DNA of 64,000 nucleotides from a virus, in IMG/VR virus record IMGVR_UViG_3300020190_000010, positions 1 through 64,000 of that record; one strand, given 5' to 3'. A model generated the notes under the pieces. That model worked only from the letters and a program-made list of their open reading frames with translations, did not search any database and was not told where the DNA came from. Positions 6,864 through 59,100 of this stretch are shown piece after piece. The position numbers and the translations under genes are program-made. The stretch's first letter is position 1. Each line of letters begins with the position of its first letter.

Positions 6864-6877
6864 TTTATTCTCCTATG

Positions 6878-6951: not shown

Positions 6952-6957
6952 TTATTG

Positions 6958-7029
6958 TGATCCCAAGGGGACTCGAACCCCTATTATCGCCGTGAAAGGG
7001 CGGTGTCCTAACCATTAAACGATGGGACC
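6958..7029 (-). tRNA. tRNA-Glu (TTC)
   Basis: A 72-nt cloverleaf. The acceptor is GGTCCCA / TGGGATC with discriminator A, the anticodon loop is CTTTCAC (anticodon TTC) on a CGCC / GGCG stem whose outer pair is C-A, and the T arm is AGGGG TTCGAGT CCCCT. CCA is not encoded. It lies 6 nt from the CAT tRNA, so both are probably processed from one leftward transcript. Confidence 0.92.
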
Positions 7030-32105: not shown

Positions 32106-32600
32106 ATGTCATTTTACCGTAGAAAAAGAGAAATTGTAAATACTGCAGTTCCAAACTTAAAATATGCAAGACCAATTGGTATAACTATACCGTTTAACAA
32201 TCCAAATGGTGTATTTTTTCAAAGTTTTACTAATGTAAAACAAGTTCTTTCAAATCTTAAAAATTTGTTATTGACTGCTCGTGGTGAACGATATATGTTG
32301 CCAACATTTGGAACAGATATTAGAACTATACTATTTGAAAACATTACAAATGAAGAAGATTTTTTCAATAGAATAAACGGTGAAATTGAAAGTGCAATTC
32401 AAGAATGGATGCCATATCTTGTAATACAAGAATTGGAAACAATAATACCAAGTGAACAAGATTATATTGTTGAAAAAGACCATTCAGTTGAAATAAAATT
32501 AACTGTAAAAATAGGTGGAACAAACATATATTTGCCAATTCAGATATTTATTGATGACACAGGCAATTTAGAAATTAAAGAGTCAATAATAAATAAATAA
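32106..32600 (+). CDS. Baseplate wedge protein, gp25-like
   Basis: A 164-residue protein of the GPW/gp25 family. The conserved strand-helix core LKNLLLTARGERYMLPTFGT, then IRTILFEN and ESAIQEWMPYLVI, are clear. gp25 is part of the wedge that connects baseplate to sheath and starts sheath assembly. It is directly followed by gp6, the same order as in many myoviruses. Confidence 0.88.
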   Translation: MSFYRRKREIVNTAVPNLKYARPIGITIPFNNPNGVFFQSFTNVKQVLSNLKNLLLTARGERYMLPTFGTDIRTILFENITNEEDFFNRINGEIESAIQEWMPYLVIQELETIIPSEQDYIVEKDHSVEIKLTVKIGGTNIYLPIQIFIDDTGNLEIKESIINK

Positions 32601-32614: not shown

Positions 32615-34510
32615 ATGGCTGATTTGGTAAAAAAAGACATTCGTTATTTATCAAGAGATTTTTCTTCTCTTAAACAAAATCTTATTGATTTTGCTAAAAA
32701 TTACTTTCCAAATACATACCAAGATTTTAATGAAACATCTCCGGGTATGATGTTTTTGGAAATGGCCGCTTATGTTGGTGATGTATTATCGTATTACACC
32801 GATGTTACATTACAAGAATCAATGATATTACATTCTAGTGAAAGAACAAATATATTAAATTTGGCACAATCATTGGGATATAAACCAAAAAATAGAATTG
32901 CATCAAATGTTGTATTGGATATATTTCAAATAGTTCCTGCAAAAACAGTTGATGGTGAAATTGTACCAGATTATGCGTATGCATTTGCAATAGAACCGGG
33001 TATGGTTGTTGGAACAACCGGCGGTGGATTTAATACTATTGAGTTTAGAACAGTTGATTTTGTTGATTTTAAGTTTAGTAGTCCTAATGATCCAACCGAA
33101 GTAACTCCTTTTGAAGTAAATGGAAGTGGTGAAGTTTTATTTTGGTTATTAAAAAAATCAGTTAAAGCTGTTTCGGGAACAATAAAAACAGTAGATTACG
33201 AATTTACAGATCCAAAACCCTATGATAAAATTGTTTTACAAGATTTGGATATGATTGAAGTTTTATATGCAATTGACTCGGATGGAAACGTATGGCATCA
33301 TGTTCCATATTTAGCACAAGATACTATTTTTGATTCCGTTATTAACGTTTCAAGAAATGATAAAACCCTATCACAACACAGAACAGAAACACCTTATTTA
33401 TTAAAACTTAAAAAAGTTGCTAGAAGATTTACAACAAGAACTGTTGATTTGGGATCATATGAAATACAATTCGGTGCAGGTGTTGCTGATTTAGATGATG
33501 AAGTTCTTATTCCAAATCCAGATTTAGTTGGTTCATCATTAACTGGTTTAGAAGCAAATACTTCAATTGATATTGATCCTTCAAATTTTCTCTATACAAA
33601 AACATATGGTCTTGCTCCAAACAATACAACACTAACTATTCATTATACTATTGGAAAAGGTATTGATGATAATGTTCAAAGTGATGTTTTAACAAGAGTA
33701 ATTAGCAGAAATATATTACTTGATGAAACTGGATTAGATAATGTTTTATACAACCAAGTGGTATCGAGTCTTGCGGTAACAAATTCTGTACCAGCTACTG
33801 GTGGAAAAACAGCAGAAGGAATAAACGAAATTCGTCAAAATGCACTTGCTTCTTTTGCTGCTCAAAATCGTGCTGTTACAAAAGAAGATTACATAATTCG
33901 TGCATATAGTTTGCCTTCAAAATATGGTTCTATCGCTAAAGCATATATTACAAAAGATACACAGTTAATATCCGAAGCAATTTTTAATAGTGAACGGGTA
34001 CAAAATGATTTAGCATTAAATTTTTATGTTTTAGGGTATGATGCTAACAAACAATTAACTACTGTAAATAATGCAACAAAAGAAAATCTAAAAACATATC
34101 TAAATCATTATAGAATGCTTACGGATGCAATTAACATTCGTGACGCTTACATAATAAACATCGGTATTGAATTTGATATAATCATATTTCCTGATCAAAA
34201 TTCAAACCAAGTTGTTCTTCGTTGTATAAACAAATTAAAACAATACTTTAATACAAAAAAATGGCAGATAAACCAACCAATTATTATCAGTAATGTTTAT
34301 ACGGAACTTGATAAAGTAGAAGGTGTCCAAACTGTTGTTGATGTAAAAATAAATAATTTATACGATCAAACATTAGGATATTCTTCTAATGCTTACAATA
34401 TACCACAAGCAACAAAAGATGGAATTATATTTCCGTCACTTGATCCATCTATTTTTGAAATAAAATATCCCGATAATGATATTATTGGTAGAGTGAGGGC
34501 ATTTGGATGA
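32615..34510 (+). CDS. Baseplate wedge protein, gp6-like (baseplate J)
   Basis: A 631-residue protein. IRYLSRDFSSLKQNLIDFAK, then TSPGMMFLEMAAYVGDVLSY (start of baseplate J family), the Ala-rich AEGINEIRQNALASFAAQNR with AVTKEDYIIRAYSLPSKYGS, and EFDIIIFPDQ strands are typical. Two copies per wedge form the inner baseplate ring in T4. RBS AGAGGCGGTTACAA. It overlaps the next gene by 4 nt. Confidence 0.88.
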   Translation: MADLVKKDIRYLSRDFSSLKQNLIDFAKNYFPNTYQDFNETSPGMMFLEMAAYVGDVLSYYTDVTLQESMILHSSERTNILNLAQSLGYKPKNRIASNVVLDIFQIVPAKTVDGEIVPDYAYAFAIEPGMVVGTTGGGFNTIEFRTVDFVDFKFSSPNDPTEVTPFEVNGSGEVLFWLLKKSVKAVSGTIKTVDYEFTDPKPYDKIVLQDLDMIEVLYAIDSDGNVWHHVPYLAQDTIFDSVINVSRNDKTLSQHRTETPYLLKLKKVARRFTTRTVDLGSYEIQFGAGVADLDDEVLIPNPDLVGSSLTGLEANTSIDIDPSNFLYTKTYGLAPNNTTLTIHYTIGKGIDDNVQSDVLTRVISRNILLDETGLDNVLYNQVVSSLAVTNSVPATGGKTAEGINEIRQNALASFAAQNRAVTKEDYIIRAYSLPSKYGSIAKAYITKDTQLISEAIFNSERVQNDLALNFYVLGYDANKQLTTVNNATKENLKTYLNHYRMLTDAINIRDAYIINIGIEFDIIIFPDQNSNQVVLRCINKLKQYFNTKKWQINQPIIISNVYTELDKVEGVQTVVDVKINNLYDQTLGYSSNAYNIPQATKDGIIFPSLDPSIFEIKYPDNDIIGRVRAFG

Positions 34511-36763: not shown

Positions 36764-39700
36764 GTGACAAATTTTAGTTACAAAAATATAGACGATATTT
36801 TATTAGCAAAAGGTCCAATTCGAGGAACCAGATTTACACCAATTAGATTAAAAAGAAAATTGGTTGTTCCTGTTTTGGATGCACCAACAACTCAATTTTT
36901 TGAATATCCTGATGCCAGTTTAGAACTTCATGCATTTTTACCAACAACTGCATATGTTGATGGTGCATCGTTATATGATATACCTTTTACAACAAAAACT
37001 GTAAATGAACAAGTTACAATTGATGGTGTATCAACAACCGTAGAAAGAAAATATGTTGTATTGGATGTTCATAGACATATCCATGAGTTTTTGAAATTAC
37101 CAGTTGGTGAATATAAATTTGTTTACAACTTTTTTAGAAATTTGGTTGGAGATCCATCAACTGATGCTTATAGATTATTTATATCCGATTTGTCTGCAGA
37201 TCGTAGAGAAGTTAGACTTTCCTTAAAATACGCTGCAAATCAAGAAGCAATTAAAAGATTAAGTGATTTTGTTTTAACATATCTATCATCAACAACATAT
37301 TTGCCACCGATAGTATTAAACTTTGGTGAAAATTTAATAGTAGATGTAATAAACATTACAACTGATGGTGATGATACATATTTTTATGCAAAATTATATG
37401 AGCCATTACCAGCAGATGTTGATGTTTATTACGAATGTTGGTTAGGTAGTCAGATACTTAAACCTTGGATAGAAAATGTATCAGTTCGTAGAGAAGAAGG
37501 TGTTGGTAAAATACCATATATTAGTGGACCTAATTTTGAAGTTGATTATGATTATTGGCTATCAACTGAAACTGATTACAAATCTTGGAATGATTTATTA
37601 TCCACAAATGTTCAAACATCACAAGAATTATTAAATAGATATGTATTTGATTACGGAAGTAATGTAAAATTAAATGTAGATTTTCGTGAGTTTAAGAACT
37701 TTATATTTTATTCTTCTGCTGCTGATAGACTTGCAAATTTCTTTTTCAAATTGGGTTTAATAGAAAATTACAACACACAACTTGTTTTATTATCTACATA
37801 TACGGGTTCCGTTGATGCTAATGTTATTAAAGTTACAAATTTAAGGGATAAGGTAATTGGTGGTTTTGATGAATTTGAAAAATGGATGTATTACGAAACC
37901 ACCGGTAGTAATTATTACACATCACAACTATCATCAACAATTACACCATTTCCAAAATATGAATTGGATATAACTGCAAGTAATTACAATATAGCAACAA
38001 AAGAGGGTAAATTTGGTTTATATTCAACATTATCTGCCGAAGGACAAAATTGGTATGATAACTTATATGAGTCTGCGAGTAACTATGATTTAAAAAATTA
38101 CAACTCTCTCAATAAAGCAATACCAGAATTTTTAAGAGATGACGAAGATAACGATGAATTTACAGTTTTTGTAAATATGATTGGACAACATTTTGATATA
38201 ATATATTTGTATACCGACCATATTTTGAAAAAAAATCAAAGAAAAGAAAATCCAAAAGACGGATTATCACAAGATTTAATATATGAAACTGCAAAAAATT
38301 TAGGTTGGACATTATCACATGGAACACAAGCAAAAGACCTTTGGGAATATGCACTTGGTTTAAGTGGTAGTGGCGAACCAATTTGGTCTGGAAAAGTAAC
38401 TACAAACAAATACCTTGCAAAAACAGAAGAAGAAAGAACAAAAGAAGTTTGGCGTAGAATACTAAATAATTTACCATATATTTACAAAACAAAAGGAACT
38501 GCAAGAGGAATACGGGCATTACTTGCTGCTTATGGCATACCAAAAACTCTTTTAAGTATAAGAGAATACGGTGGTCCAGATAATGCCGATTTCGGTGAAA
38601 CACCAAGAACAGAATTTGAAAAACAAACTTATTATCTAAATTTTTCAGGAAGTTATCCGCTACCAACAACAAATCGTTATGTTGAAGTTCCGTGGGAACA
38701 AATTAACAATGAAGATGGCAATTGGCAATATCCAGATACATTAACATTTCGTTGGAAAATGGAACCAAACAAAATGTATAAATATGATTTGGATCCAATA
38801 CAAACTGTATTGCAAAAACAAAGTGGTAGTCGAGTGGATTGGTTTGTTACTGCAAATAAAAATGGAACTGATATTGAAAAAGGAAGTTTAACTTTTTATT
38901 TAGGAAATGGTAGTAGTTACAAAAGTGCATCAATAAACGATGATTATTTCTATGATGATGTTCCATTAAATTTAATGATTAAAAGAAGATATACAAATGA
39001 TAATTCTTCTTCAAATCAAATTTATGATTTTATAGTTAAAACTGAAAAATACGGAAAAGTTGTAATAGAAAGGTCTGCTAGTATATCCGTAACTGGAAGC
39101 ACCGAATCAAATTACAATCGTGCATGGGTATCAAGTGGACAATTATACATTGGTTCTGGATCAAATACACAAACAAATAATATACTTTCAGGTTCAATTT
39201 TTGAATTGAGATATTGGGCAAAACAATTAAATGAAACTTCTTTCAATAACCATGTGTTATCTGCTCGTGCTTACAATGGTAATACACCAACATCCTCTTT
39301 CTATGATTTACAGGCACAATGGAAATTTTGGCAAAAATTTGATGTTGCAGTTACAACAAGTATACAAAGTTCACATCCAGACCAAACAAAAAATACATTT
39401 TATAGTTCTTCAAAAAATGCTTATTTTTATGGATTTGATTCCGGTGCATTTGAAAGTTTTGTTGAAACATATAATATGGAAATTGTAACTGCAGGAAATA
39501 ACACACCGTTTACAGAAAAAATCCGAATTGACTCCGCATCATTACTTGCTCCATTAAAAGTTGATGAATCATTTGCCGTTTCAAATTTTGATAAATTTTC
39601 TATTGATACAAATAAATTGATGGTTGCATTTTCACCAAACCATATAATAAATGAAGACATATATGAGGCATTAGGATATACAACACTTGATGATTATTTT

Positions 39701-40762
39701 GGTGAATACTCTGCTGTAAATTCCGATGAATATGTAAACTTAAAACATTTTGCAAGAGAATACTGGAAAAAATATCCAAACAAAAATGATTTTACTGCAT
39801 ATATTCGTTTAATTGCAAAATTTGATTTTAGTGTATTTGATCAAATTCGTCAAACATTACCATTAAGAACAAATGAAATTTTAGGTGTGGTTGTAGAACC
39901 AAATGTTCTTGAACGCTCAAAAGTAAAAGTAAATAGAGATTTTTCTGCTGAAAATGTAAATGTAGTTGATACTAATGTTTTGGATAAGGCACCAAAACCG
40001 GCAGTATCTATTTCAAGAAAAAAATCAACTTTATTGATTGGATTTGAAGAAAACTTTGGAAGTAACATTGCAAATGTTGAAGGTGAATATGATGTTGAAA
40101 CTAATTTTAGTGTTGTAGTTGATGATATTGAAGGTGATAGAGATATAAAAGCTGAAGTAAAACCTAAAATACAATTTAGAAAAAAGGCAAAAATTACTCC
40201 AAAATTCAAAAAAATTGAAAGTCAATATAAACCAACTATTAAAACAAAAATACAATCAACATTTAAGTCAATACTACCAAGTATTAGTTCACTTGAAACT
40301 ACATTGATTGCAAAATCATCAAAGATAAGTGTTCAATCAAATATGTTTTATTCTCCAACTGGAATATTATCCATTATTCCATTGCGTTCAAATAGAATAG
40401 ATTTTGAAAATTTAACTTCAATTGGGTATAATGCTAAAGAAAGAAAAACTGCTTACTATCAACAAATAGATAGATACAGAGATGATAGTTATTATCAAAA
40501 ATTTGATCCAAGATATGCAACCATATTAAGTTACAATATGGAAGCACCAACATCTTATGAAAAAATATCAACAGATTATCGTAAATCTGAAAATTTACCA
40601 ACTGGTATAAAAAATCATAGATTTATTGGAACAAAACTTCGTGGAAAAAATAATGAAGCAATAAACCAAGATTGTATACCTGCAGTAACGCCAGACGGTG
40701 GACCGGTTGTTGTTGTAATTACATCAAATCTTGATACTGACATTGAATATAATATACAATAA
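36764..40762 (+). CDS. Large tail/baseplate protein with gpI-like module
   Basis: A 1332-residue protein, GTG start (GGATGG before it). Residues 560-610 (RRILNNLPYIYKTKGTARGI followed by RALLAAYGIPKTLLSIREYG) match the core of phage tail protein I (P2 gpI), a baseplate component. A later stretch (about residues 640-900) has LamG-like beta segments (LSGSIFELRYWAKQLNETSF). The end is basic with repeated KPKI/KIQ segments and PDGGPVVVVITSN. Its size suggests the role of T4 gp7 or a fused wedge protein. Confidence 0.68.
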   Translation: MTNFSYKNIDDILLAKGPIRGTRFTPIRLKRKLVVPVLDAPTTQFFEYPDASLELHAFLPTTAYVDGASLYDIPFTTKTVNEQVTIDGVSTTVERKYVVLDVHRHIHEFLKLPVGEYKFVYNFFRNLVGDPSTDAYRLFISDLSADRREVRLSLKYAANQEAIKRLSDFVLTYLSSTTYLPPIVLNFGENLIVDVINITTDGDDTYFYAKLYEPLPADVDVYYECWLGSQILKPWIENVSVRREEGVGKIPYISGPNFEVDYDYWLSTETDYKSWNDLLSTNVQTSQELLNRYVFDYGSNVKLNVDFREFKNFIFYSSAADRLANFFFKLGLIENYNTQLVLLSTYTGSVDANVIKVTNLRDKVIGGFDEFEKWMYYETTGSNYYTSQLSSTITPFPKYELDITASNYNIATKEGKFGLYSTLSAEGQNWYDNLYESASNYDLKNYNSLNKAIPEFLRDDEDNDEFTVFVNMIGQHFDIIYLYTDHILKKNQRKENPKDGLSQDLIYETAKNLGWTLSHGTQAKDLWEYALGLSGSGEPIWSGKVTTNKYLAKTEEERTKEVWRRILNNLPYIYKTKGTARGIRALLAAYGIPKTLLSIREYGGPDNADFGETPRTEFEKQTYYLNFSGSYPLPTTNRYVEVPWEQINNEDGNWQYPDTLTFRWKMEPNKMYKYDLDPIQTVLQKQSGSRVDWFVTANKNGTDIEKGSLTFYLGNGSSYKSASINDDYFYDDVPLNLMIKRRYTNDNSSSNQIYDFIVKTEKYGKVVIERSASISVTGSTESNYNRAWVSSGQLYIGSGSNTQTNNILSGSIFELRYWAKQLNETSFNNHVLSARAYNGNTPTSSFYDLQAQWKFWQKFDVAVTTSIQSSHPDQTKNTFYSSSKNAYFYGFDSGAFESFVETYNMEIVTAGNNTPFTEKIRIDSASLLAPLKVDESFAVSNFDKFSIDTNKLMVAFSPNHIINEDIYEALGYTTLDDYFGEYSAVNSDEYVNLKHFAREYWKKYPNKNDFTAYIRLIAKFDFSVFDQIRQTLPLRTNEILGVVVEPNVLERSKVKVNRDFSAENVNVVDTNVLDKAPKPAVSISRKKSTLLIGFEENFGSNIANVEGEYDVETNFSVVVDDIEGDRDIKAEVKPKIQFRKKAKITPKFKKIESQYKPTIKTKIQSTFKSILPSISSLETTLIAKSSKISVQSNMFYSPTGILSIIPLRSNRIDFENLTSIGYNAKERKTAYYQQIDRYRDDSYYQKFDPRYATILSYNMEAPTSYEKISTDYRKSENLPTGIKNHRFIGTKLRGKNNEAINQDCIPAVTPDGGPVVVVITSNLDTDIEYNIQ

Positions 40763-40891: not shown

Positions 40892-41611
40892 ATGGGTTAT
40901 TTGAGCAATAGTGGCACAATCACCGTAGATGCAATTCTTACGAAAAAAGGTAGAGAGTTACTTGCTAAAGGTCAAGGTAGTTTTAACATTACACAATTTG
41001 CACTTTCTGATGATGAAGTAGATTATGATTTATGGAACCCACAACATGGACTTGGTTCCGATTACTTTGGTATAGTAATTGAAAACATGCCAGTTACTGA
41101 AGCTGTTCCAGATGAAACACAATCAATGAAATATAAATTGATTACACTTCCTCCAGGAACAAAAGCAATTCCATATCTTGAAGAAAAAAATGGACAAACA
41201 TCCGTATCAGTATACAGTCAAGGTTATTTGGGAAATAATGCTGCAACTTTTCCTGTTACTAAACTAGTGGAAATTGGAACATTCCAATACACAGGTACAC
41301 AAAGTAATACAAGAATGGATGCAGAAGCTCAAACATATACTCTTACTATTTTAGATTCAACTTATATTATGTTTGACACAACGATCCCATTGAATACAAA
41401 CAAGCAACCAAGTATGTCAGGTAATTCAATGACATATTCTGGAGTTGGTGATGTTTTGACTAATGGTCAAAGATATGTAAACTTTACAGTTAGAGGTAAA
41501 GACGTTCCAACTGTTCCGGGTGGAGTAGAAACTACAAAATCTACAAAAATTATTATTACTAATGAAAAGTATGGCTCAAGATTAGTTTTACCGGTATCAT
41601 TTACATACTAA
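40892..41611 (+). CDS. Abundant-type virion structural protein
   Basis: A 239-residue protein starting MGYLSNSGTITVDAILTKKG, then RELLAKGQGSFNITQFALSD, a conserved opening I associate with structural proteins of marine myoviruses. The rest is beta-rich with an Ig-like end (RGKDVPTVPGGVETTKSTKI). It has the strongest ribosome binding site in the region (AAAGGAG), its own promoter and a leader hairpin, so it is probably highly expressed. Exact position in the virion unknown. Confidence 0.65.
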   Translation: MGYLSNSGTITVDAILTKKGRELLAKGQGSFNITQFALSDDEVDYDLWNPQHGLGSDYFGIVIENMPVTEAVPDETQSMKYKLITLPPGTKAIPYLEEKNGQTSVSVYSQGYLGNNAATFPVTKLVEIGTFQYTGTQSNTRMDAEAQTYTLTILDSTYIMFDTTIPLNTNKQPSMSGNSMTYSGVGDVLTNGQRYVNFTVRGKDVPTVPGGVETTKSTKIIITNEKYGSRLVLPVSFTY

Positions 41612-41649: not shown

Positions 41650-42822
41650 ATGAGTAGCTTAATCTATAAGCCATTAGAATTTACTGTAGCACCAAATGGT
41701 AGAGCAGAAGTAATTACAACACCATTCATTCGTGGTATGTGGGATGATACTACAAGTGAACTTATGACATTTTTTACAAGTTCATTACAAACCACTGCTT
41801 CTCAAGAATACTATTATGAAATTTGGAGTTCTTCTTCTTTGAGTTGCGAAAACAAAGAAAAAGTTTTTTCCGTTGCATATGGTCATGTAAGTGGTTCTGG
41901 CTCACAATATAATAATGCAAACGTAGAAAATACTTCTGGCGATACACCATCAAAATCGATATACAACCAATTCAAACAAATGTGTCTTGATGGAGATGAA
42001 GGTGGTTTGAAATTGTCAGGATCATCATTCCCAATGACACATTTTTATGTTGTATCACTCAATCGTGATAAATTTGGTGATAAATTGGATCCAGGTAATT
42101 TTGAATTAAACTTGGTAGAATTAAGTGGAAGTGGTATTCCAAATAATGATTTTACTGGAAGTAAAGTTGTTCCCTCCGGATCAAATCCAAAAATGATTTC
42201 TTTAATAGATGATTCTGGCGATATTAACAATAGTGCTGTAGACGAAAGCGGTATTGCAACATCTGTTCCAAGATATATTGTTAGTGGTAGTTTGTCAAAT
42301 GGTATTCATAATACATCCGCACCACATCAATACGGTATTGTTTATCCAAGTTTGGGTATAATGTTATTGGATGCCGATAAACTAAACCTTTCAGCATCAT
42401 TTAATTCAGTAACAGGTAGTAATGTAAACGGTGATAATTCATATAAATTATTTACAGCCATAAGTGGTGCTGCTTCTTTACAATCAACTGGATTTAATGC
42501 TCGTTCAATTGACGTAAAAAATGAGTCACATTTTTATGTAAGAGTAAAAACAGAAACAAATGGTTATGGATCTAATAATCCAACTTTTGTTTTACCGCCA
42601 AATACTGTTGATGCTGAAACAGGAATATCTGCAACAGGATTGATAAAATATAGTGACTGGAGGGCAAAGGCATCCGGTGTTTCTGGAAAACCAACCGTTT
42701 ACATAACATCAATTGGTTTGTATGATAAAGACTTCAACCTATTGGCTGTTGCTAAAATGAGTAAACCGGTAAGACATGATATAAATGAAGAATTATCAAT
42801 AACTGTAAAATTAGAGTATTAA
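41650..42822 (+). CDS. Tail structural protein, five-member paralogue family (copy 1)
   Basis: A 390-residue protein. Shared family segments: TFFTSSLQTTASQEYYYEIW, VFSVAYGHVSGSGS, NRDKFGDKLDPGNFELNLVE, the GSNPKMISLIDDSGD strand and the end YITSIGLYDKDFNLLAVAKM. The four following family genes (42825, 43919, 48047, 49330) repeat all or part of this plan. GATAGGAATTTAAC precedes the ATG. Virion role by context; possibly fibres or decoration around the baseplate. Confidence 0.65.
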   Translation: MSSLIYKPLEFTVAPNGRAEVITTPFIRGMWDDTTSELMTFFTSSLQTTASQEYYYEIWSSSSLSCENKEKVFSVAYGHVSGSGSQYNNANVENTSGDTPSKSIYNQFKQMCLDGDEGGLKLSGSSFPMTHFYVVSLNRDKFGDKLDPGNFELNLVELSGSGIPNNDFTGSKVVPSGSNPKMISLIDDSGDINNSAVDESGIATSVPRYIVSGSLSNGIHNTSAPHQYGIVYPSLGIMLLDADKLNLSASFNSVTGSNVNGDNSYKLFTAISGAASLQSTGFNARSIDVKNESHFYVRVKTETNGYGSNNPTFVLPPNTVDAETGISATGLIKYSDWRAKASGVSGKPTVYITSIGLYDKDFNLLAVAKMSKPVRHDINEELSITVKLEY

Positions 42823-42824
42823 AT

Positions 42825-43910
42825 ATGGACTCATTATCATTTAAGAAATTTACAAACGATGCACTTTCAACATCGCAACGTGAAGTAGTTACGGCACCAT
42901 TGTGGTCTGAAGAACAAAGTAAATTATCAACTGTATTTACAAGTTCCGCACAATCTGATAATGAAAAACGATATTATTATGAAATTTTTAATAGTCAATC
43001 AAATACAATAGGTGCAGAATCACAATTTAGTATTGCGTATGGCGATGTTATGGGCAGTGGTTCATCAACAGGTTCTTATGGATTTGATACATTAGATTAT
43101 CCAACAAAGGCGATATATTCTCAATATAGACAATTATTGCTTACCAATCAAAATTTATTTAAGTTTGAAAATGATGAAACATCTGAATATGTTTATATTG
43201 TTAATGTAAACCGTGCTCGTTTCAAAGATAGAATGGACACTAATACTTGGCAATTAAACTTAATGCATATAAATGGAACTGGTAGTGCTCTTCTCGGTCA
43301 AGTTGTTGTTTCATCATCAAATAAAATGATTTCATTGATAGATGATTCTGGACAATCAACTACCGAATCTGCAACATTAGGTGGTAGAGTACATTATGTT
43401 AGAAGTGGATCATTAGTAAATGGTATTTATACTGCAGATACAACTCCGTGGGGATTGTTTTATCCAGACTATGGTGTAATTGTTTTGAACGGAAAGGCAT
43501 TAGATGCATCTTCTTCATTTTCAACTGCAAGATCTGTTGCTGGTAGTGGTAGTCAATTTGGTGGTGGTGCAGATAATATATTTAGATTTTGGACATCAAT
43601 AAGTGGTGCTATGTCATACGATCCAAATAGTGGATCATTTCAAGGTGCTACCAGTGAAGTAATTGCATCAACCTATTACTATGCTAGACTATTAAATAAT
43701 GAATTTAACTATACAGGAAATCCAAGTTTTTATTCTGGTAGTAGAAATGAATTAAAATGGCCAGGTATGTATAATGATCCAAGAGTATATTTAACTACTG
43801 TTGGTTTATATGATGACAATTATCAATTATTGGCTGTTGCTAAATTAAATGAGGCGGTTGCAAAAACATTTGACAAAGAAATTGTTATTAAAGTAAAACT
43901 TGATTATTAA
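42825..43910 (+). CDS. Tail structural protein, paralogue family (copy 2)
   Basis: A 361-residue protein starting MDSLSFKKFTNDALSTSQRE. It has VFTSSAQSDNEKRYYYEIFN, SIAYGDVMGSGSSTG, NRARFKDRMDTNTWQLNLMH, KMISLIDDSGQ, a WGLFYPDYGVIVLNG strand and the end LTTVGLYDDNYQLLAVAKLN. It is separated from copy 1 by 2 nt with no good ribosome binding site, so translation probably continues from upstream. Confidence 0.65.
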   Translation: MDSLSFKKFTNDALSTSQREVVTAPLWSEEQSKLSTVFTSSAQSDNEKRYYYEIFNSQSNTIGAESQFSIAYGDVMGSGSSTGSYGFDTLDYPTKAIYSQYRQLLLTNQNLFKFENDETSEYVYIVNVNRARFKDRMDTNTWQLNLMHINGTGSALLGQVVVSSSNKMISLIDDSGQSTTESATLGGRVHYVRSGSLVNGIYTADTTPWGLFYPDYGVIVLNGKALDASSSFSTARSVAGSGSQFGGGADNIFRFWTSISGAMSYDPNSGSFQGATSEVIASTYYYARLLNNEFNYTGNPSFYSGSRNELKWPGMYNDPRVYLTTVGLYDDNYQLLAVAKLNEAVAKTFDKEIVIKVKLDY

Positions 43911-43918
43911 GGCGATAT

Positions 43919-46900
43919 ATGAATGAATACTTTGACGATGGCGTTTTCGGTTTAATTACATCTGGTGTAACCGCAATTACACAGAAGAATGCATCTGTTA
44001 TAGATACAACAATAACCGCATTACAAGCTGAAATACAAAAACAACAGGGTAATATAGATTATTGGAGAGATCTTGATAGACAAGATATTGTTGATGAACT
44101 TACTCTCATTCAAAATATCGCAAGACAATTTGTTACATTATTCAATGTTTATTTCAGATACTTAACTGATACAGGCGGAACAGGAACTCCTCCATATACT
44201 GATTGGGCTGATGAATATAATTCATTTCTTGGTGTATCACCAAAAACAATAGTTAGTGGATCACAATTACCTTCTGGTACAAATCAAAGTTCATTGGAAT
44301 ATGGTACATGGCAAAAATTAAAAAACATGCTAACTACTGGTCAAACTGGAACACCTTATACCCAACCACCACCACCACAGGGAATGCAACAGCGTGCAGC
44401 ATGGATGCAAAAACCATTTACATTACCAATTGACAATGCAAAAGATTGCATGTTTTATATTGAAACTAGAGAAGTTGATCCAGGTGGAACAAGAAGTATA
44501 GTAATTGGAAGTAATACATATACCATAAAAAATCCAACAGTTTTAGAATTTAAGTTACACAGATGTTGCAATGTCAAAGTTCCAAAAGTAGTTGATCAAT
44601 GTGGTAATTGTCCTACAGGAACAAATCAAAAATATAAGGCAAATGAACGGCACATAATAATTGATTGGACAAGATTAGTTACCGGAAAATTATCATATAC
44701 ATTACAAGATTGTCAAGGTCTTCAAACAAAAAAGGTAAATTACAATTATTGGTATGATTCAGACGAAGTTTGGGAAAACTTTTTATCAATAACAAAAAAT
44801 TACAATATAGTAGTTCCTGATGGTCAAAATGAAGCATCATGTGCAGTTGATATGCAATTTGATCCTGAGGATTATCCATATTCAACACAATCTCGTCAAT
44901 TCTCTCTTGTAAATTTACAAGAACATTTAATATCAAGAACAATTGATCCTACTGTTTACAGTAAATATCCAAACAATAGAGGAAGAGAATTGCGTGGAGC
45001 ATATGCCACAAGTCTTGGAACTCTATGCACCGAAGCGTATAATAAACAATTTGTTAGTCCTCACGGTGATATTGGTGAGTTAATTGGTTCAAAAAAGGGG
45101 ATGCTTCCAGATAATTTTGATAGAATATTTGCATATGCTTCACCAAAGTGGTTTGATTACACAAATATAGGATTCATAAGTCATGTTGAAGCTGTTTATA
45201 GAGGAAATACAAAATCAAATCCTGGTAGTATCAGTATAAGTGAATGGTATTCAAATGCATCATTAACCAATGAATTTGAACTAATTTCTGATATTCAGCA
45301 TTTTGATAATCCCATAGTTGAAAGAACGTCATGGCCTTATGTTGATCCTCTATCCTCTAATCCAAATGATAGATTATATCCGTTAGTGCCTTCTGTGAAA
45401 GCAAAAGGTGGTGGGGAAATTGCATGTCAATCACCAAACATTACACCAACTGGTTATGATTGTAATAGACCATTTAGTGAAACTAGAGGATTTAATTGGA
45501 TATTAAAAGAATCTCCTGTAAATGTTTTTAGAGACATTGAAGATTTTTCAAATGCGTATAATCAATCAACAAAAAGATTTGTTGGATTAACAGATAATAA
45601 TACATTTGACGGATCAGTAAAAATTGCATCCGGACAAATCTTTAAGATTTTTGATGGTGGCGGATCTGTATTGAGATTTAATAACTTTACAGATGTTCCA
45701 AACATCCAAGTTCCTGGTAAACCTTGTTTTGTTGGAACTGAAAGAACATACAAAATTGATATTAAACGCCAACAAAAAGTTTATATTAAATTAGAATGTA
45801 ATGCTTGGGGCGAAATTCCATATTTTTCAAAACCAACAGATGTCCCAAAAGCCGCTGGCGATTCAAGATTTGACAATTCAGATTTTACAGGAAATGCTGG
45901 TATTATATCAAGAGGACCATATGTAACTCAAATGGTTAAAGGTGGTGCTGGAACAACAATGGGTTCTTATCCAGGTGCTATACTTGAAGAATCAACTGGA
46001 CAATGGTATATTTACAAAGAAGTATTTACACCATTTTTAGATGGAAATGGTAATAGAGACTTCAAAACAATTCTTGGTAATACAATATCTCTGAATAAAA
46101 ACGGTGTTGGTTGTCAGCCATCAAGAGAAGAATGTGCTAGAACAGAACCACAAGTTGATCCAAATAATGTTTGTGGTTGCACCGAATTTATTATAGAAAC
46201 TTGCGATGATGTATATGATTCATTTACATATACAGATTTCATGGATAGACAAACGCATGTAAAAGAATACAGAATTGCTAAGGAGTTTCCTGCTGATCCA
46301 CAATACCGTTGGTTACGAGCAACAGAAAGAATATACTCAACCGTATTATCTGGAAGACCAGAGTGTAATCCTTCACCAGTTAGAATGCATCATCCTTTCT
46401 TGTTTGGTGCAGATGTGCTAACAGGTATAAAGAAAAATATAGTTTTTGGTTTATTCAATGGAATGCAATCACCGACTTGTTATTTAACAAGTTCCGTTCA
46501 ACCTACTGCATCAAAAGAATACTATTATGATATAACTGATTGTGATAGTTGCACAACAAATCCATATTATGCAATTGCTTATGGACATTATGAAGGTTCT
46601 GGATCTACAAGTATTGGTTATGATTATAGTGATAGTGCAACTAAGGCAATATATTCACAATATAGATTATTGGCACTTGAACATCCAGAAACAAGATTTA
46701 AGTTTTATGATGTTGGAACCGAAACAACACCAAAGGGAATATATGCAATAAACTTTTATAGAGATGGTTTGAGTCACAGATTGGATCCTGGCAATTTTCA
46801 AATAAATCTTGCAGGATTAAGTGGAAGTGCTTTTGCTAATAATGTTCACACAGGAAGTAATGTTCAAATATCTGGTTCAAATCCAACGATATTGTCACTA

Positions 46901-47485
46901 ATTGATAATTCCGGTGATATTGATGAAAGTAAATTTTGTTTAGAGGATCCGTATTCATATTATGATATTGTTAGTGGTTCACTTTCAAATGGTGTTCATA
47001 ATAGTGGAACTGGAAGTATATTGACCAATACAAACATAACAACTTATGGTAGAGTATATCCAAATATAGGCGTTGTTATATTGAACGGTGATAAATTTGA
47101 TAGTATTTTAGGATTTAATTCTGTAACTGGAAGTAACATTGCAGGTGATAATGCTTGGAAAATACATACATCTATAAGTGGTGCAGCTGCTCTTGGACAA
47201 CCTATTAAAGCTAGAAATGTAAGAACAAAAACAACAAATCATTATTTTGTTCGTGTTCCAACAACTGAGGCAAATTATAGCACAAATCCTACTTATGTAC
47301 TAAACGATGGTGAAAAACGCGGTCACTTAAAGTATGAGTGTTTTGTAAACGATCCAGTAACATACATTACATCAGTTGGTCTTTACAATGACAAAACAGA
47401 ATTACTTGCTGTTGCAAAATTAAGTAGACCTATTCAGAAAACGCCAGATAACGATGTTCTAATTAAAATAAGGTTAAATTGGTAA
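43919..47485 (+). CDS. Large virion protein with C-terminal paralogue domain (copy 3)
   Basis: A 1188-residue protein. The first 830 residues are unique: a short helical start, then Cys-rich beta regions (HRCCNVKVPKVVDQCGNCPT, CGCTEFIIETCDD), which could hold metals or disulphides. From about residue 840 it repeats the family plan (CYLTSSVQPTASKEYYYDIT, AIAYGHYEGSGS, HRLDPGNFQINLAGLSGSAF, VTYITSVGLYNDKTELLAVA). It seems a fusion of a new N-terminal module to the shared domain. AAGGCGATAT precedes the ATG. Confidence 0.65.
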   Translation: MNEYFDDGVFGLITSGVTAITQKNASVIDTTITALQAEIQKQQGNIDYWRDLDRQDIVDELTLIQNIARQFVTLFNVYFRYLTDTGGTGTPPYTDWADEYNSFLGVSPKTIVSGSQLPSGTNQSSLEYGTWQKLKNMLTTGQTGTPYTQPPPPQGMQQRAAWMQKPFTLPIDNAKDCMFYIETREVDPGGTRSIVIGSNTYTIKNPTVLEFKLHRCCNVKVPKVVDQCGNCPTGTNQKYKANERHIIIDWTRLVTGKLSYTLQDCQGLQTKKVNYNYWYDSDEVWENFLSITKNYNIVVPDGQNEASCAVDMQFDPEDYPYSTQSRQFSLVNLQEHLISRTIDPTVYSKYPNNRGRELRGAYATSLGTLCTEAYNKQFVSPHGDIGELIGSKKGMLPDNFDRIFAYASPKWFDYTNIGFISHVEAVYRGNTKSNPGSISISEWYSNASLTNEFELISDIQHFDNPIVERTSWPYVDPLSSNPNDRLYPLVPSVKAKGGGEIACQSPNITPTGYDCNRPFSETRGFNWILKESPVNVFRDIEDFSNAYNQSTKRFVGLTDNNTFDGSVKIASGQIFKIFDGGGSVLRFNNFTDVPNIQVPGKPCFVGTERTYKIDIKRQQKVYIKLECNAWGEIPYFSKPTDVPKAAGDSRFDNSDFTGNAGIISRGPYVTQMVKGGAGTTMGSYPGAILEESTGQWYIYKEVFTPFLDGNGNRDFKTILGNTISLNKNGVGCQPSREECARTEPQVDPNNVCGCTEFIIETCDDVYDSFTYTDFMDRQTHVKEYRIAKEFPADPQYRWLRATERIYSTVLSGRPECNPSPVRMHHPFLFGADVLTGIKKNIVFGLFNGMQSPTCYLTSSVQPTASKEYYYDITDCDSCTTNPYYAIAYGHYEGSGSTSIGYDYSDSATKAIYSQYRLLALEHPETRFKFYDVGTETTPKGIYAINFYRDGLSHRLDPGNFQINLAGLSGSAFANNVHTGSNVQISGSNPTILSLIDNSGDIDESKFCLEDPYSYYDIVSGSLSNGVHNSGTGSILTNTNITTYGRVYPNIGVVILNGDKFDSILGFNSVTGSNIAGDNAWKIHTSISGAAALGQPIKARNVRTKTTNHYFVRVPTTEANYSTNPTYVLNDGEKRGHLKYECFVNDPVTYITSVGLYNDKTELLAVAKLSRPIQKTPDNDVLIKIRLNW

Positions 47486-47486
47486 T

Positions 47487-48008
47487 ATGATATGGGATAG
47501 AACAAAAACTCTTGCTATTTTATCAAATTTTTATGTTTACATGGTTCCAAGTGTAAGTATTTTTGGTGAATTATACAATTTAACAGTAATTGAAGATGAA
47601 TTGCAAGATCAAGTATTACGATTAGAATTTCATAACGAACAGCTGTTGCCAAGAGTTGGATTAAAAAAAGTTGTTGATAATGTTATTGCAAGAAAAAGTG
47701 CAGAATTTTTCATAAGACTAATACAAGATTCAAAATTTCATGTTAAAGATGGATTAGATTATCTAGAATTTATTGAAGGCATAGAGTATGCATTAGATAA
47801 GTTAAATTCATACGATAAAGTATTAACTGACATAGTTATAGAGGATCAAAAAGATGTATCTTTAATTGAATTTAGTGTGAATTTTATTGCTGCACTTAAT
47901 GACAAACAAAATGAAATTGAAGAATCTGAAACAGAAGATCAACTTGCAGAAACATTTTTTGATTCACCGATAGATACTAGATTTTTAATAGATGATACAG
48001 AAATTTAA
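47487..48008 (+). CDS. Small helical tail-operon protein
   Basis: A 173-residue protein beginning MIWDRTKTLAILSNFYVYMV. It is helical and acidic toward the end (NEIEESETEDQLAETFFDSP). It sits between copies 3 and 4 of the paralogue family with 1-nt spacing to copy 3, which suggests a chaperone or adaptor for them, but the sequence gives no family. Confidence 0.6.
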   Translation: MIWDRTKTLAILSNFYVYMVPSVSIFGELYNLTVIEDELQDQVLRLEFHNEQLLPRVGLKKVVDNVIARKSAEFFIRLIQDSKFHVKDGLDYLEFIEGIEYALDKLNSYDKVLTDIVIEDQKDVSLIEFSVNFIAALNDKQNEIEESETEDQLAETFFDSPIDTRFLIDDTEI

Positions 48009-48019
48009 TATACAAAAAT

Positions 48020-48026
48020 TATTTAT
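48020..48026 (+). promoter_or_regulatory. Candidate late promoter TATTTAT
   Basis: TTATTTATTA, a weak variant, 20 nt before the gene at 48047. Confidence 0.35.
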
Positions 48027-48046
48027 TAAAAATAAAATGGTTACAA

Positions 48047-49330
48047 ATGAAAATAGATAGACTTAAAATAAATAAATACATTCTTGAATTATTAAAAAGT
48101 TACGTTGATTTTGTAAAAGAAAACGATTTTGTAACTCCAGATAAAATTACTGTATTAAATCGCACAACAAGTGGTTCAGTTTTTCCAGAAATAGAGTTCA
48201 TAAATGAAGCTCTAAATCTTGGTGTTCCATCATTAAACTATAAGGAATTATCGAAAGAAACCGATTATACACCTGCCATAAAAAAACAAACTACAAGAGG
48301 TTTATTTGGGTGTGCAACAAATGAAAAATTGGAAACATTCTATACTGGTTCAGTATTATCCAATCAACAAAATTATTATATGTCTGTTTATGATAAATTG
48401 CCAAGTGATATAAATACACATCACGAATTTGATATTGCATATGCACATATATCTGGATCAGGTTCTTCATATACACAAATAGACGGAACATATACAACAG
48501 AATTTTTGCCAGCAAAAACTATGTTTCGTAAATATATGTTAGATTGTTTTGATAAAACTGATGGTAAATTTGAATTTAAGAATGGTGCAAACGGTAACTA
48601 TTTTTATGTTTTACATTTTAATAGACAATCATTTAAGGACAGGTTAGATCCTGGTAATTTTCAAATGACTATTTCTCCCATTGTTTCAAATCCAAATCAA
48701 TTATACAATACAGGAAGTAATTTTTATTTCAATACTGCATCAAATACTATATTTACATTGATAGATGATAGTTCTGACTCAAAAGAACAAATAACATACA
48801 TGGAAGAAGTAAAAGATTATTACTACCTTGTTTCTGGATCTCTTTTAGATGGTGTATATGATGATAGTGGTTCAAATGCTTGGGGTATAGTTATTCCAAA
48901 AAAGGGTATTGTTATTTTAGATGGTGTTGTTTTGGATCAATCATGTTCATTTAATACCGTTACTGCTTCTATTGATGGTGATAACATTAAAAAATTATTT
49001 TATGCAATAAGTGGTTCAACTGCACCAAATAGTGTAAGAAATAACTATGGTTCTTGGTTTGCTAGATCATCGGAATGTAATTTAGTAGAAACATATTTTT
49101 GTAGAGTTCGACCAAATGAAATGAGTTATTCAAATAATCCTACTTATGTAAGTGGTAGTAATAAAGAACTACGCTATAAATCACCAGTAGATGATTCATT
49201 TGCTTACATAACAACCGTTGGTTTGTATAATAATAAAAGACAACTTATTGCAGTTGGTAAATTAGAAAAACCAATTCTAAAAAAGAAGAGCGATGAATGT
49301 ATATTTCAAGTTAAAGTGAGAACAAACTAA
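48047..49330 (+). CDS. Tail structural protein, paralogue family (copy 4)
   Basis: A 427-residue protein. An 85-residue N-terminal extension (KIDRLKINKYILELLKSYVD) precedes the family plan: LETFYTGSVLSNQQNYYMSV, FDIAYAHISGSGSSY, NRQSFKDRLDPGNFQMTISP, FTLIDDSSD, WGIVIPKKGIVILDG and AYITTVGLYNNKRQLIAVGK. Its stop overlaps the start of the next gene by 1 nt (TAATG), so translation is coupled. Confidence 0.65.
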   Translation: MKIDRLKINKYILELLKSYVDFVKENDFVTPDKITVLNRTTSGSVFPEIEFINEALNLGVPSLNYKELSKETDYTPAIKKQTTRGLFGCATNEKLETFYTGSVLSNQQNYYMSVYDKLPSDINTHHEFDIAYAHISGSGSSYTQIDGTYTTEFLPAKTMFRKYMLDCFDKTDGKFEFKNGANGNYFYVLHFNRQSFKDRLDPGNFQMTISPIVSNPNQLYNTGSNFYFNTASNTIFTLIDDSSDSKEQITYMEEVKDYYYLVSGSLLDGVYDDSGSNAWGIVIPKKGIVILDGVVLDQSCSFNTVTASIDGDNIKKLFYAISGSTAPNSVRNNYGSWFARSSECNLVETYFCRVRPNEMSYSNNPTYVSGSNKELRYKSPVDDSFAYITTVGLYNNKRQLIAVGKLEKPILKKKSDECIFQVKVRTN

Positions 49331-51045
49331 TGTCATTTCAATTCGGAAATACAATAAGTGTTGCTTGGAAAAAATTAAAAGCCGGTGATTATACTGTTAG
49401 GTCATTTGAGGCAAATAAACTTTGGAAAATAAACACAGATACAAATGACCAATACTATTACGATAAAATTGGAACAAAAGTATACCGTGCACTATATGCA
49501 GAAAATCATAAGTATTTTGGCAAAGTTGCAAATTTAAGTTCTTCTTTATATGAAAGAGTTTTTACTTCACAAAGTTTAGATCCAAAACTTTTATGGTATC
49601 ATCTTGACCATTCTTTTTATACAGAATATCAAACAGGAAAATTTCCTGTTTATATTACAGAGGATGCAACATTAACATATCTTTGGCAATCAAGTTCAAT
49701 GGTTGTATTTCCAATGGGTGTTTTTGGTGAAGGAATAAAGAAAAAAAGTTTTACTATGACCAATTACAGTAGCACATCTTCAAAAGAATTTACAGTAGTT
49801 GATGACGGATTTGGTAATCTAATAGATACTTCATACGATACTGAACATTTTATACCGATAGAAAATAATCTTCTATATGTTGGTTTCAATGAAAAGTATA
49901 GAGAATACAATTACAAAAATGAAAAATTGGAATATGTATTAGATACTTCGAGAAATAGATATAATGTAAAATTATTTAATCCGAAAAAAATAAGTTACAA
50001 TGATGGAATACCAACAAGTGATACAAATGAATCAACTGGTGTTTCTGCTAATTTATATGGTTCTTATTTTCAAGTAGAAGAAGCACCGTATTTTAATTTT
50101 ACAAGGTTAAACAATTTTGCTTTTAGTTTTTGGATGAAAATACCACCAACACAATCAATGCTTACTTCCGATTACAACGCAATCTTTAATAAAAATACAA
50201 TTGAAAAAAAAGATATAAATGGAATAACATCAACAATTTTAAGTGTTTCGGAACAATATCCATTTGATATTTCATTATTAAATGTGTCATCTTCTTCACC
50301 AAATTCAATAAGATTTAGACAAAGTTCAGAATTAGAGACTGCATTTGTTACTTCAAGTGCATTAACGCCAAATTCTTGGTATCATGTTGTGTGTCAGAAA
50401 ACAGGAAGCAATTATCAAATATGGTTAAACGGTGCATTAAATGCATCTTCAAGTGCATTCGTTTCAAATAAAATACTAAATAATAACAATTTTTATATTG
50501 GTGATGATGGAACTGGAACAAAATGTTTATCTGGTTCTTTGGATGAAATTCGTATTTACAAAAAAGGTTTAACCTCAAATCAAATAAATTCTTTGTATGA
50601 TAACAGTTTTGAAACAGGATCTGCATATCAAACCAATAGAATTGGCAATATATTTTACAAAAAAGGAATTGTTGTTGTTTCTGATCCAAGACCTAAATAT
50701 GCAAATACATTTTTAGGTGAAACTGGTAATTTTGATTACAATGATTTAACAGATGGTTTTTATGGACAATTTAGAAGCACAACAACAATGTATGAACATG
50801 AAATTGTTTGTAAAATTCGCAAACATGAATTTAATTATACACAAAATCCATCTATATTAAAAGATGTGCAATCCGGTCCTTCATTATTAGATACCTATGT
50901 AACTAATCCATATTTCAATCCATACATAACAACAGTTGGATTATACAATAAAGATAGAGAGTTAGTTGCAGTTGCTAAAGTGGCAAATCCGATAGAAAAA
51001 AGAGACGATGTAGATATGAATATCATTGTAAGGTTTGATATGTAA
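49330..51045 (+). CDS. Tail protein with LamG-like insert, paralogue family (copy 5)
   Basis: A 571-residue protein. The beginning and end follow the paralogue family (end: YITTVGLYNKDRELVAVAKV), but residues about 235-430 contain a concanavalin/LamG-type sandwich: FNFTRLNNFAFSFWMKIPPT, TPNSWYHVVCQKTGSNYQIW, NNNFYIGDDGTGTKCLSGSL and DEIRIYKKGLTSNQINSLYD. LamG domains bind sugars, so this copy is a candidate receptor-binding member. Confidence 0.7.
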   Translation: MSFQFGNTISVAWKKLKAGDYTVRSFEANKLWKINTDTNDQYYYDKIGTKVYRALYAENHKYFGKVANLSSSLYERVFTSQSLDPKLLWYHLDHSFYTEYQTGKFPVYITEDATLTYLWQSSSMVVFPMGVFGEGIKKKSFTMTNYSSTSSKEFTVVDDGFGNLIDTSYDTEHFIPIENNLLYVGFNEKYREYNYKNEKLEYVLDTSRNRYNVKLFNPKKISYNDGIPTSDTNESTGVSANLYGSYFQVEEAPYFNFTRLNNFAFSFWMKIPPTQSMLTSDYNAIFNKNTIEKKDINGITSTILSVSEQYPFDISLLNVSSSSPNSIRFRQSSELETAFVTSSALTPNSWYHVVCQKTGSNYQIWLNGALNASSSAFVSNKILNNNNFYIGDDGTGTKCLSGSLDEIRIYKKGLTSNQINSLYDNSFETGSAYQTNRIGNIFYKKGIVVVSDPRPKYANTFLGETGNFDYNDLTDGFYGQFRSTTTMYEHEIVCKIRKHEFNYTQNPSILKDVQSGPSLLDTYVTNPYFNPYITTVGLYNKDRELVAVAKVANPIEKRDDVDMNIIVRFDM

Positions 51046-56170: not shown

Positions 56171-59100
56171 ATGTTAGAAAAGAAACGGTTACCCAGAAAA
56201 TACATAGATGTAAAAACTACCTTTACGGATAGTAATAATAAATCACCAAACATTCTTGATTTGAAATTTATACCCGATGTATTTACTGCCGGTAAAAATA
56301 TATTTAAGATAAAGCCAAATAAAAAAGTAGTTTCTTCAAAGTTTCCAATAGACATAGAAATTCTTGATAAGAATGGTAATCCAATATACCATGAAGTTTT
56401 AGAGTCAAGAGAAAAAACAGATCTAATAAATGTTTCAGTTTATGTTTATGAGACTGTTCCTGCAGGTGAATGCACAATAACTATTCTAGCAACTGTAACT
56501 GTTGATAGAACGGGAAGACCTTTAACTAAAAGCAATATAAAGAAGTATAATTACAAATACAACCACAAACTTTCTGTTGATCCAAAAAAACAAAATGAAA
56601 GCGAAATAATATATTCAAAAGTTCCAGAAGTTTCTATTAAGGAAAAAACATTTTCTGTAATAGAAGAAATAAATACGCCAACAAAATTGGATGTAAAATC
56701 TGGATATGCAAACTATGAGTTAAAAGAAGACGGAACACCAAGATTAACTGCTAGAACAGATTTATTCAATTCCGATTTTGTTAATGGTAAAATAACATTT
56801 GGATCTCTTGCAACAGGATATAGACCAACCGTTCAAACTTCATCATTTCAATATACATCAAGCGTTGATAAGGTAGTTGGACCAAGACAATTAAACTTAA
56901 AAGATGCAGTTTACATAACTGGATCAGATGGGATTTATAGAAAATTAAGTTCTGTTTCAAATCAACCGTATCAAATAGAGTATTACAAAAGTCCAACTAT
57001 TAGAAATATAACACAAAATGTAAAGACATATGCACAGATTGATATTTCTGGATTGGATCCTGAAGTTGGTAATTCATCTAGAATAAAAGTTTTTGCTAGA
57101 AGTGCCGTAAAACCAAATCAATCATATGAGTTAATATATGATGAAAGAGTATTACAAAATAATAGATTGGTAGATACTTCATCAAAATTTATAGATCATC
57201 CAATCGGTATATTTGCAAAAAATGTTACAGTAAAATCTGCTGGAACACAAGTAACATACCAATTAAATTCATCTGCAAGTTATTGGAAAGCGGTATCTGT
57301 AAACGGTGCTCCATCTGCAAATATAACAACTGGATCAGTTGCTAATGATGAAACCTTTGTTGGAATATCAACTGTTGTTGCATCACCTTTAACTGGAATA
57401 CAAGAAATTTTTGTTGAACAAACTTCAAGTGCCGCTACTGAATTTTATGATGATTCTGTTTACAACTTAAAATTCGATTATACCATAAGACCTAGTAAAT
57501 CAGATTCCAGAACTCCAAAATTTAGAGTATATGTAACAGGAAGTGCTTTTGCAAATAATTCTGAATACGGTAGATTGGTTGCAGATATTCCAATTGGTAG
57601 AATATTTGATAATAAAGTAAATAAAGATTACACCGTAAAACTACCTGTTGTAAAAAATGGAACTGGTATAGTTCGTTTTCTTGTAAATGATGGCATAAGA
57701 TTATCGAATATAAGAATACAAGAGGATGTTGATTTTGGTTTTACTCCAAATAGAACAACCATATATGCACCATTGAAACAGGATCATAGAAATGAATATC
57801 TTGATTTTAAGATACAATTTTTTAATGATAGTCTAAAAGAATCAAATGTTTCTGCATCATTTACTAATGCATTTTTTGTTGGTGGAAATAGTTACATATA
57901 CGGTGGAACTAATATAATAACTGGATCTACATTTATTTCTCCATATACTTCAAGTGGTGTTCAATTGTATGCAAACATACAAGCCGGAACATCAGGATCA
58001 GCAATTCAGTCTTATGGTTATAGTGGGGTAAACAATGCAATTCAAAATCCTTCAACTCCTTCTCATTTTGGATGGGGATTAACTCAAGGCAATCCTCATA
58101 GTCAAAGTGTAAATACCTTCTCCGAAACAAATATAAATATGATAAATGAATGTGGATCTATTTTTGATTTTAGAGCAACACCTTCAAATTTTATATTTAC
58201 AATGATTGGTAGTTCTTCATTTCTTGTAGGTAGTAGTGGATCATACAATCCAACATTTGGCACTGCAGGTGCGGCTGGAACATCTGGATGTGATCCAATA
58301 TGTGATGAATCATACATAAAGTGGGATGGGTGTGAAGTAACAATATACAATGCAAATGTAATATCAAGTTCTTTTGTAGGAACATCCGGTATTGGTGGAA
58401 CTGGAACATCAGGAACTTCTGGCACCGATGGATTAAATGGGACATCCGGAACATCTGGAACTTCAGGAAATAATGGTTCATCCGGAACATCTGGATTAGA
58501 TGGGACATTTTTTGGTTCATCTGGTTCATCTGGAACCTCAGGTTCATCAGGAAGTTCTGGCACATCAGGTTCATCAGGAACTTCTGGCACATCAGGTTCA
58601 ACAGGAACATCTGGATTAGATGGGACATTTTTTGGTTCATCCGGAACATCAGGAACTTCTGGCACATCAGGTTCATCAGGAACATCAGGAAGTTCTGGTT
58701 CATCTGGTTCAAGTGGAACTTCTGGCACATCAGGTTCAACAGGAACATCTGGATTAGATGGGACATTTTTTGGTTCATCTGGTTCATCTGGAACCTCAGG
58801 TTCATCAGGAAGTTCTGGTTCATCTGGTTCAAGTGGAACTTCTGGCACATCAGGTTCATCAGGAACTTCTGGATTAGATGGGACATTTTTTGGTTCATCC
58901 GGAACATCAGGAACTTCTGGATTAGATGGGACATTTTTTGGTTCATCCGGAACATCTGGTTCATCCGGAACATCTGGTTCATCCGGAACATCTGGTTCAT
59001 CCGGAACATCTGGTTCATCCGGAACATCTGGTTCATCAGGTTCATTCGGAAGTTCTGGCACATCAGGTTCATCCGGAAGTTCTGGCACATCAGGTTCATC

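Follow-up and report, generated by a model that had tools for sequence, protein, structure and literature searches.

Canonical tail fibres and tailspikes are anchored by their N-terminus. N-terminal anchoring of both kinds of protein is likewise stated in PMC12692247. In the branched tailspike complex of the Ackermannviridae, paralogous adsorption proteins are clustered, conserved domains hold the complex together and the distal parts vary (PMC11414711), and in Alcyoneusvirus RaK2 ten tail proteins of one cluster were shown experimentally to co-exist in the virion (PMC10253068). Here, we analyzed a 64,000-base stretch (the window, bases 1-64000) of the 137,492-base IMG/VR virus record IMGVR_UViG_3300020190_000010, which carries an array of five genes (g1 to g5), all on the + strand, whose products share all or part of a C-terminal domain, hereafter the core; a sixth copy (g6) lies further along the same record. 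With a probability of roughly 0.55, we consider these six proteins to be one undescribed family of baseplate-associated proteins in contractile-tailed aquatic phages, an estimate that applies to the reading as a whole, i.e., an anchored core, host contact through N-terminal parts, and joint use of the copies.

The array is like the Ackermannviridae complex (PMC11414711) in that clustered paralogues share a conserved domain while their distal parts vary, and paralogues sharing one domain are what is expected of a multi-protein adsorption complex. It differs in that the conserved domains of the Ackermannviridae are N-terminal (PMC11414711), whereas the shared domain is C-terminal here and has no sequence relation to any Pfam or PHROG family; no tailspike domains were found in the array proteins. 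The likeness to RaK2 (PMC10253068) consists in several tail proteins, putative ones here, coming from one cluster, and unlike in RaK2, no depolymerase-type domain was detected in the array proteins. Both systems are functional parallels; none of the tests made shows them to be relatives. A single lead points to a known attachment domain, namely the motif GLYDxxxxLIAVA at the C-terminus of the core, which also occurs in the N-terminal domain of the P2 tail-collar fibre gpH (PF12571; hhalign 50-86% over 23-26 residues). This short motif, placed at the opposite end of the protein, is all that the two have in common, and it is too short for membership; the C-terminal ~90 amino acids (aa) of the core were unmatched by the PF12571 model at E ≤ 10, while P2 gpH as control gave 2.8e-58.

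The array comprises the following features (window coordinates, strand, description, and basis):

41650..42822, + strand, g1, core-only copy of 390 aa, core at about residues 22-390 (blastp, tree, AF2 model)
42825..43910, + strand, g2, core-only copy of 361 aa, core at about residues 7-361 (blastp, tree)
43919..46402, + strand, N-terminal region of g3, 828 aa, fast evolving (rates, AlphaFold model, Cys test)
46403..47485, + strand, core of g3, residues 829-1188 (blastp, tree)
47487..48008, + strand, p173, small gene separating g3 from g4 (comparison with relatives)
48047..48259, + strand, short N-terminal segment of g4, about 61-71 aa (hhalign to the extensions of relatives)
48260..49330, + strand, core of g4 (blastp, tree)
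49330..51045, + strand, g5, 571 aa, related to the core and carrying an inserted LamG domain (blastp, hhalign, relatives)
50092..50589, + strand, LamG/concanavalin A-like domain in g5, residues 255-420 (Pfam PF13385, E 1.6e-17)
50638..51042, + strand, stretch at the g5 C-terminus with homology to core positions ~229-390 (hhalign 99.4%, E 2e-21)

An earlier reading of the letters and open reading frames (ORFs), the sequence-only reading, had placed the five genes at 41650, 42825, 43919, 48047, and 49330, where ORFs are indeed present, and had proposed a shared C-terminal segment, which was borne out by both blastp and profile-profile alignment. In all-against-all blastp every pair among g1-g4 aligned over ~360 aa with 31-40% identity (E 1e-44 to 1e-69), delimiting a common core domain of ~355 aa. 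The relationship of g5 is more remote: its residues 385-568 matched g4 with E 7e-13, and its C-terminus matched g1-g3 with E 1e-6 to 1e-10. In profile-profile alignment, g5 425-571 matched core positions ~229-390 over 131 columns (hhalign probability 99.4%, E 2e-21), far beyond chance, where hhalign E-values refer to a single comparison and not to a database; the part of g5 in common with the core thus amounts to its last ~130-160 aa. The motifs quoted for the shared segment are present but vary between copies (e.g., FKDRMDTNTW in g2 and YTGS...YYMSV in g4). Different N-terminal additions, also proposed, exist in g3 and, in some relatives, in g4; g1 and g2, with only ~20 and ~6 residues ahead of the domain, are practically core alone. 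As side observations, the core contains 5-6 cysteines in g3-type copies of most phages (0-2 in a few), 0-1 in g2 and 1-5 in g1, and a mid-core stretch (profile positions ~145-168) is missing in g1 of Microcystis phage Mel-JY01 (L038:17980-19053).

The LamG domain of g5, the only array protein in which it was found, scored 64.5 bits against a curated PF13385 cut-off of 27.6. It is preceded by a DDGxGNL stretch and followed by an xGNIFYxxG stretch, which are separated by 272-283 residues in ten aligned LamG-carrying proteins; in Flavobacterium phage immuto and LR756508, two relatives lacking LamG, they lie 9 residues apart or overlap. Because the flanks adjoin within 10 residues in these two relatives, the LamG domain is an internal insertion; the LamG-like sandwich of the sequence-only reading is real, but it is not an N-terminal addition. 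The N-terminal half of g5 matched the N-terminal half of the core weakly (hhalign 15%), though at the expected place. LamG is probably a sugar-binding module.

The N-terminal region of g3 and its own core evolve at very different rates. In a comparison of the window with L005, the N-terminal part was 57% identical with a nonsynonymous rate (dN) of 0.36, and the core 94% identical with a dN of 0.038, so that amino-acid-changing substitutions accumulated ~10 times faster in the former; over the same comparison g1 and g2 kept 90-91% and g5 85% identity. Four more pairs showed a contrast in the same direction. A similar pattern was found in the long copies of three-gene phages (L136:6914-10153, L140:7016-10147, and L141:6875-10141), with identities between phages of 35-46% in the N-terminal part and 90-94% in the core; for L136 vs. 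L140 these were 35% (dN 0.76) and 94% (dN 0.032), respectively. In L136, the N-terminal part has collagen-like repeats of GPT and a run of prolines immediately ahead of the core. This is the reverse of the conserved N-terminus and variable C-terminus looked for in tail fibres, as here the N-terminal part is variable and the C-terminal core conserved. Cysteines are far better conserved than other residues: in the g3 N-terminal part, 12 of 18 cysteines vs. 32 of 810 other residues were ≥ 60% conserved, and conservation was 62% vs. 15% (permutation p < 1/20000). The AlphaFold model of this region was confident locally but not as a whole (predicted template modelling score, pTM, 0.40), with a helical bundle at 7-140, a beta domain at 177-300, a low-confidence middle, and a beta-rich, Cys-conserved neck at ~527-820.

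The duplications are old. In a tree of 145 cores (quick method) the copies formed separate clades by position, with supports of 99 for g1, 99 for g2, 100 for g3, and 98 for g4, and in a 45-row tree with careful bootstraps the g1, g2, and g4 clades reached 100, while g6 fell inside the g3 group. Recent tandem duplication was ruled out, as copies cluster by position across phages. The proposed duplication followed by domain addition holds in that one domain was duplicated and different parts were added, but it has to be amended, as the duplications are old and LamG was inserted; likewise, the suggestion of alternative or layered fibres has to accommodate four ordered orthologous groups (g1-g4), which argues for joint use of the set and against interchangeable alternatives. 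In the L136/L140/L141 lineage the core was duplicated independently, and the new copy bears a long, fast-changing N-terminus. Because the L136 long copy (L136_n2_2) pairs with its own short neighbour (99/96, 45-row tree), duplicated cores gained a long N-terminus on at least two separate occasions. This grouping, together with the lack of a match to the g3 N-terminal profile, ruled out that the long copy of three-gene phages is a g3 orthologue.

The N-terminal extension of g4 had been described as an 85-residue helix, but measured only ~60-70 residues. Much longer versions, with 150-636 residues ahead of the core, occur in L038, L045, L046, L049, L055, L025, L125, and L126, all of which lack a separate gene between g3 and g4; p173 is absent from relatives having the long g4 N-terminus. 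The short segment corresponds to the end of these long extensions (hhalign 95.6%). In L122 a separate 317-aa gene stands at that place (L122:7951-8901) and is homologous to the g4 extensions of L046, L049, and L038 (E 1e-24 to 1e-17); since the two arrangements form a gene fusion/fission pair, this suggests that the L122 product and g4 would associate physically. Two further candidates were dropped: p173 showed no detectable link to the long g4 extension (hhalign 1.2%), which only the L122 gene matched, and a correspondence between the short g4 segment and the N-terminal segment of single-copy phages was unsupported (hhalign 4.5%).

The set is larger than the five genes first noted, as the record holds a sixth core at 134252-135334, beyond the window, within a 921-aa ORF at 132578-135343 (L192:14579-17344). 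The g6 core is nearest to that of g3 (52%), and the two proteins have a CGC-containing, Cys-rich neck in common, while the distal N-terminus differs. Its neighbourhood is non-structural (Hsp20, a pyridoxal phosphate (PLP)-enzyme-like gene, and dUTPase). In a second, distinct genome of 177,312 bases (L023 contig), a 915-aa orthologue of g6, 35% identical over ~850 aa, is flanked by the same genes and lies ~74 kb away from the array of that genome. Elsewhere, the N-terminal part of g6 was found, among the matches listed, only in contigs identical to it there.

Upstream of the array lie four genes of the conserved neighbourhood:

32106..32600, + strand, gp25-like baseplate wedge protein (PHROG baseplate wedge subunit, E 3e-10)
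32615..34510, + strand, gp6/gpJ-like baseplate wedge protein (PHROG baseplate wedge subunit, E 1e-23)
36764..40762, + strand, w1332, 1332-aa protein with a conserved place upstream of the array (synteny; gp7-like by position alone)
40892..41611, + strand, w239, 239-aa protein encoded immediately ahead of the first core gene (synteny, alignment)

With this linkage to the gp25 and gp6 wedge genes, and a contractile sheath gene elsewhere in the record, the array has the setting of a baseplate module. The gene order gp25-gp6-w389-w1332-w239-core(s)-LamG core-(GIY-type gene)-primase-gp46 is kept in two-, three-, and five-copy phages, apart from pieces missing at contig ends, and in all loci compared, including that of Rhodothermus phage RM378, the first core gene is directly preceded by w239. 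There, a single core homologue (Rm378p128, no function assigned) stands beside the 239-aa gene; only this w239-core pair was found and most other neighbours are absent near it. For w1332 there was no Pfam or PHROG match; inspection by eye suggests that it has a LamG-like stretch (LSGSIFELRYWAKQLNETSF), one not reported by Pfam. The 389-aa protein at window positions 34507-35676 gave a sub-threshold match to a carbohydrate-binding module (CBM96, E 2e-4). Other genes of the window include a tail fibre-like gene of 2185 aa (56171-62728), probably the main long fibre, whose PHROG matches are of collagen type, a 782-aa ORF with tail-fibre/collagen PHROG matches (23357-25705) upstream of an endolysin-like gene, an endonuclease-like ORF (19195-20100; phrog_8420, E 1e-56) shortly upstream of a head maturation protease gene at 21241, and two tRNA genes (Met and Glu) on the - strand at 6877-7029.

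The core profile gave 472 ORFs in the 183 loci searched, and in viral contigs at least 589 stretches matched the family; no prophage copies were found in cellular genomes. Five genes in one order occur in the lineage of the window and in Microcystis phage Mel-JY01 (PP395634), where the contig spans the region. Mel-JY01, a cultured phage of Microcystis elabens, has the same neighbours too, with all of these genes annotated as hypothetical, and differs in its long g4 N-terminus and the lack of p173; no sixth copy was found in it. The commoner form is a pair, a ~430-aa core protein followed by the LamG-carrying g5 type, and two-gene contigs of 56-187 kb carry exactly two copies; three copies are present in L136, L140, and L141, and one in RM378. 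In Flavobacterium phage immuto_164/165, a core homologue stands beside the 239-aa gene and a g5-type protein is present too, giving a LamG-free pair with no function assigned.

Database searches placed the core in no described family: it had no significant match in Pfam or PHROG, including tail fibre and tailspike families, and kinship of either the core or the g3 N-terminal part with a solved structure was rejected, as neither sequence nor fold comparison gave a significant match. The AlphaFold (AF2) model of g1, which is of good quality (predicted local distance difference test, pLDDT, 83; pTM 0.76), matched 11 proteins in BFVD at E ≤ 1e-3, of which the named ones were uncharacterised except for one concanavalin A-like lectin superfamily protein and one Laminin G domain protein. 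In the open-access literature we found no paper on the core family or on Mel-JY01, although such papers may exist.

Because the core adjoins baseplate genes, exists in core-only copies, and is joined to fast-evolving N-terminal parts, we propose a C-terminal attachment domain with outward N-terminal modules. Conservation and gene order make the core most likely the attachment part, and the mounting probably opposite to that of ordinary tail fibres. From the sequences we infer a location in the virion, C-terminal anchoring, outward N-termini, binding of a receptor or glycan, and co-existence in one particle. In such a scheme, the core of g1-g4 and g6, and its shortened relative in g5, would attach the individual proteins to the wedge of the baseplate or to one another. 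An ancestral unit of one core gene and one LamG-carrying core gene would have grown by duplication, and the copies would have adopted separate fixed roles, as the position-specific clades suggest. Long N-terminal regions, gained by g3, g6, and, in relatives, g4, would project outward and contact the host, changing quickly while conserved cysteines maintain the scaffold of g3, and all copies would be produced and used together. More tentatively, the family may be an undescribed platform for host recognition that is widespread among uncultured contractile phages of aquatic habitats; N-terminal receptor modules would sit on a C-terminally anchored baseplate domain, opposite to the usual tail-fibre polarity, and up to six paralogues would form one hetero-oligomeric baseplate edge.

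Several points weigh against this proposal. Neither the g1 core model nor the g3 N-terminal model had a match in PDB (best E 0.5 and 0.3, respectively), and no relative of the core has a functional annotation. The dN contrast within one protein is 10- to 24-fold; ratios are rough, as the synonymous rate (dS) approaches or exceeds 1 in several of the comparisons, but within-gene identity contrasts are independent of dS. In the g4 extensions the contrast is smaller (38-45% vs. 57-58%), and in g5 there is none; fast evolution of the N-terminal part could also mean loose constraint.

The rival that survives best, although we regard it as unlikely, is that the copies are purely structural, i.e., a duplicated baseplate or neck ring component turned hetero-oligomer, with the N-terminal parts as drifting spacer or assembly parts without a receptor role. 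The core-only state of g1 and g2, the fixed order, and the separate clades would suit such a ring, and the collagen-type fibre gene at 56171-62728 can supply host recognition; against this reading stand a 10- to 24-fold dN contrast inside one protein, the conserved cysteine scaffold of g3, the lectin-like domain of g5, and an N-terminal part almost wholly replaced between L136 and L140, whose cores are 94% identical. Much less probable is that the core itself binds the receptor or sugar and the N-terminal regions anchor: this would restore the usual polarity of fibres and tailspikes (PMC12692247), but it is the core that is conserved between phages and the N-terminal part that varies, g1 and g2 have no other part for anchoring, and the sole motif-level lead, the baseplate-proximal gpH N-terminal domain of P2, falls in the C-terminus of the core. 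Alternative host-range cassettes, with just one long copy (g3 or g6) per particle, are comparably improbable: g6 does combine a g3-like core and Cys-rich neck with a different distal N-terminal part outside the tail cluster, but its location is conserved in another genome, g1-g4 form fixed and distinct groups, and the 137,492-base record, possibly incomplete, gave no match to the reverse transcriptase (PF00078) or resolvase/invertase (PF00239) models by which a diversity-generating retroelement or an invertible fibre cassette would be recognized. Since the copies are fixed and position-specific and neither enzyme was found in the record, joint use is favoured over switching.

The core family is present in at least 589 stretches of viral contigs, yet it is without a name, a match to a known fold, or an assigned function. 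Should the proposal be true, annotation that expects conserved N-terminal anchors misses the host-recognition parts in this large phage group, and host-range determinants of freshwater cyanophage relatives, e.g., Mel-JY01, should be sought in the variable g3-type N-terminal regions. Phages with one, two, three, and five copies form a natural series for the growth of a tail part by duplication, from one product to several.

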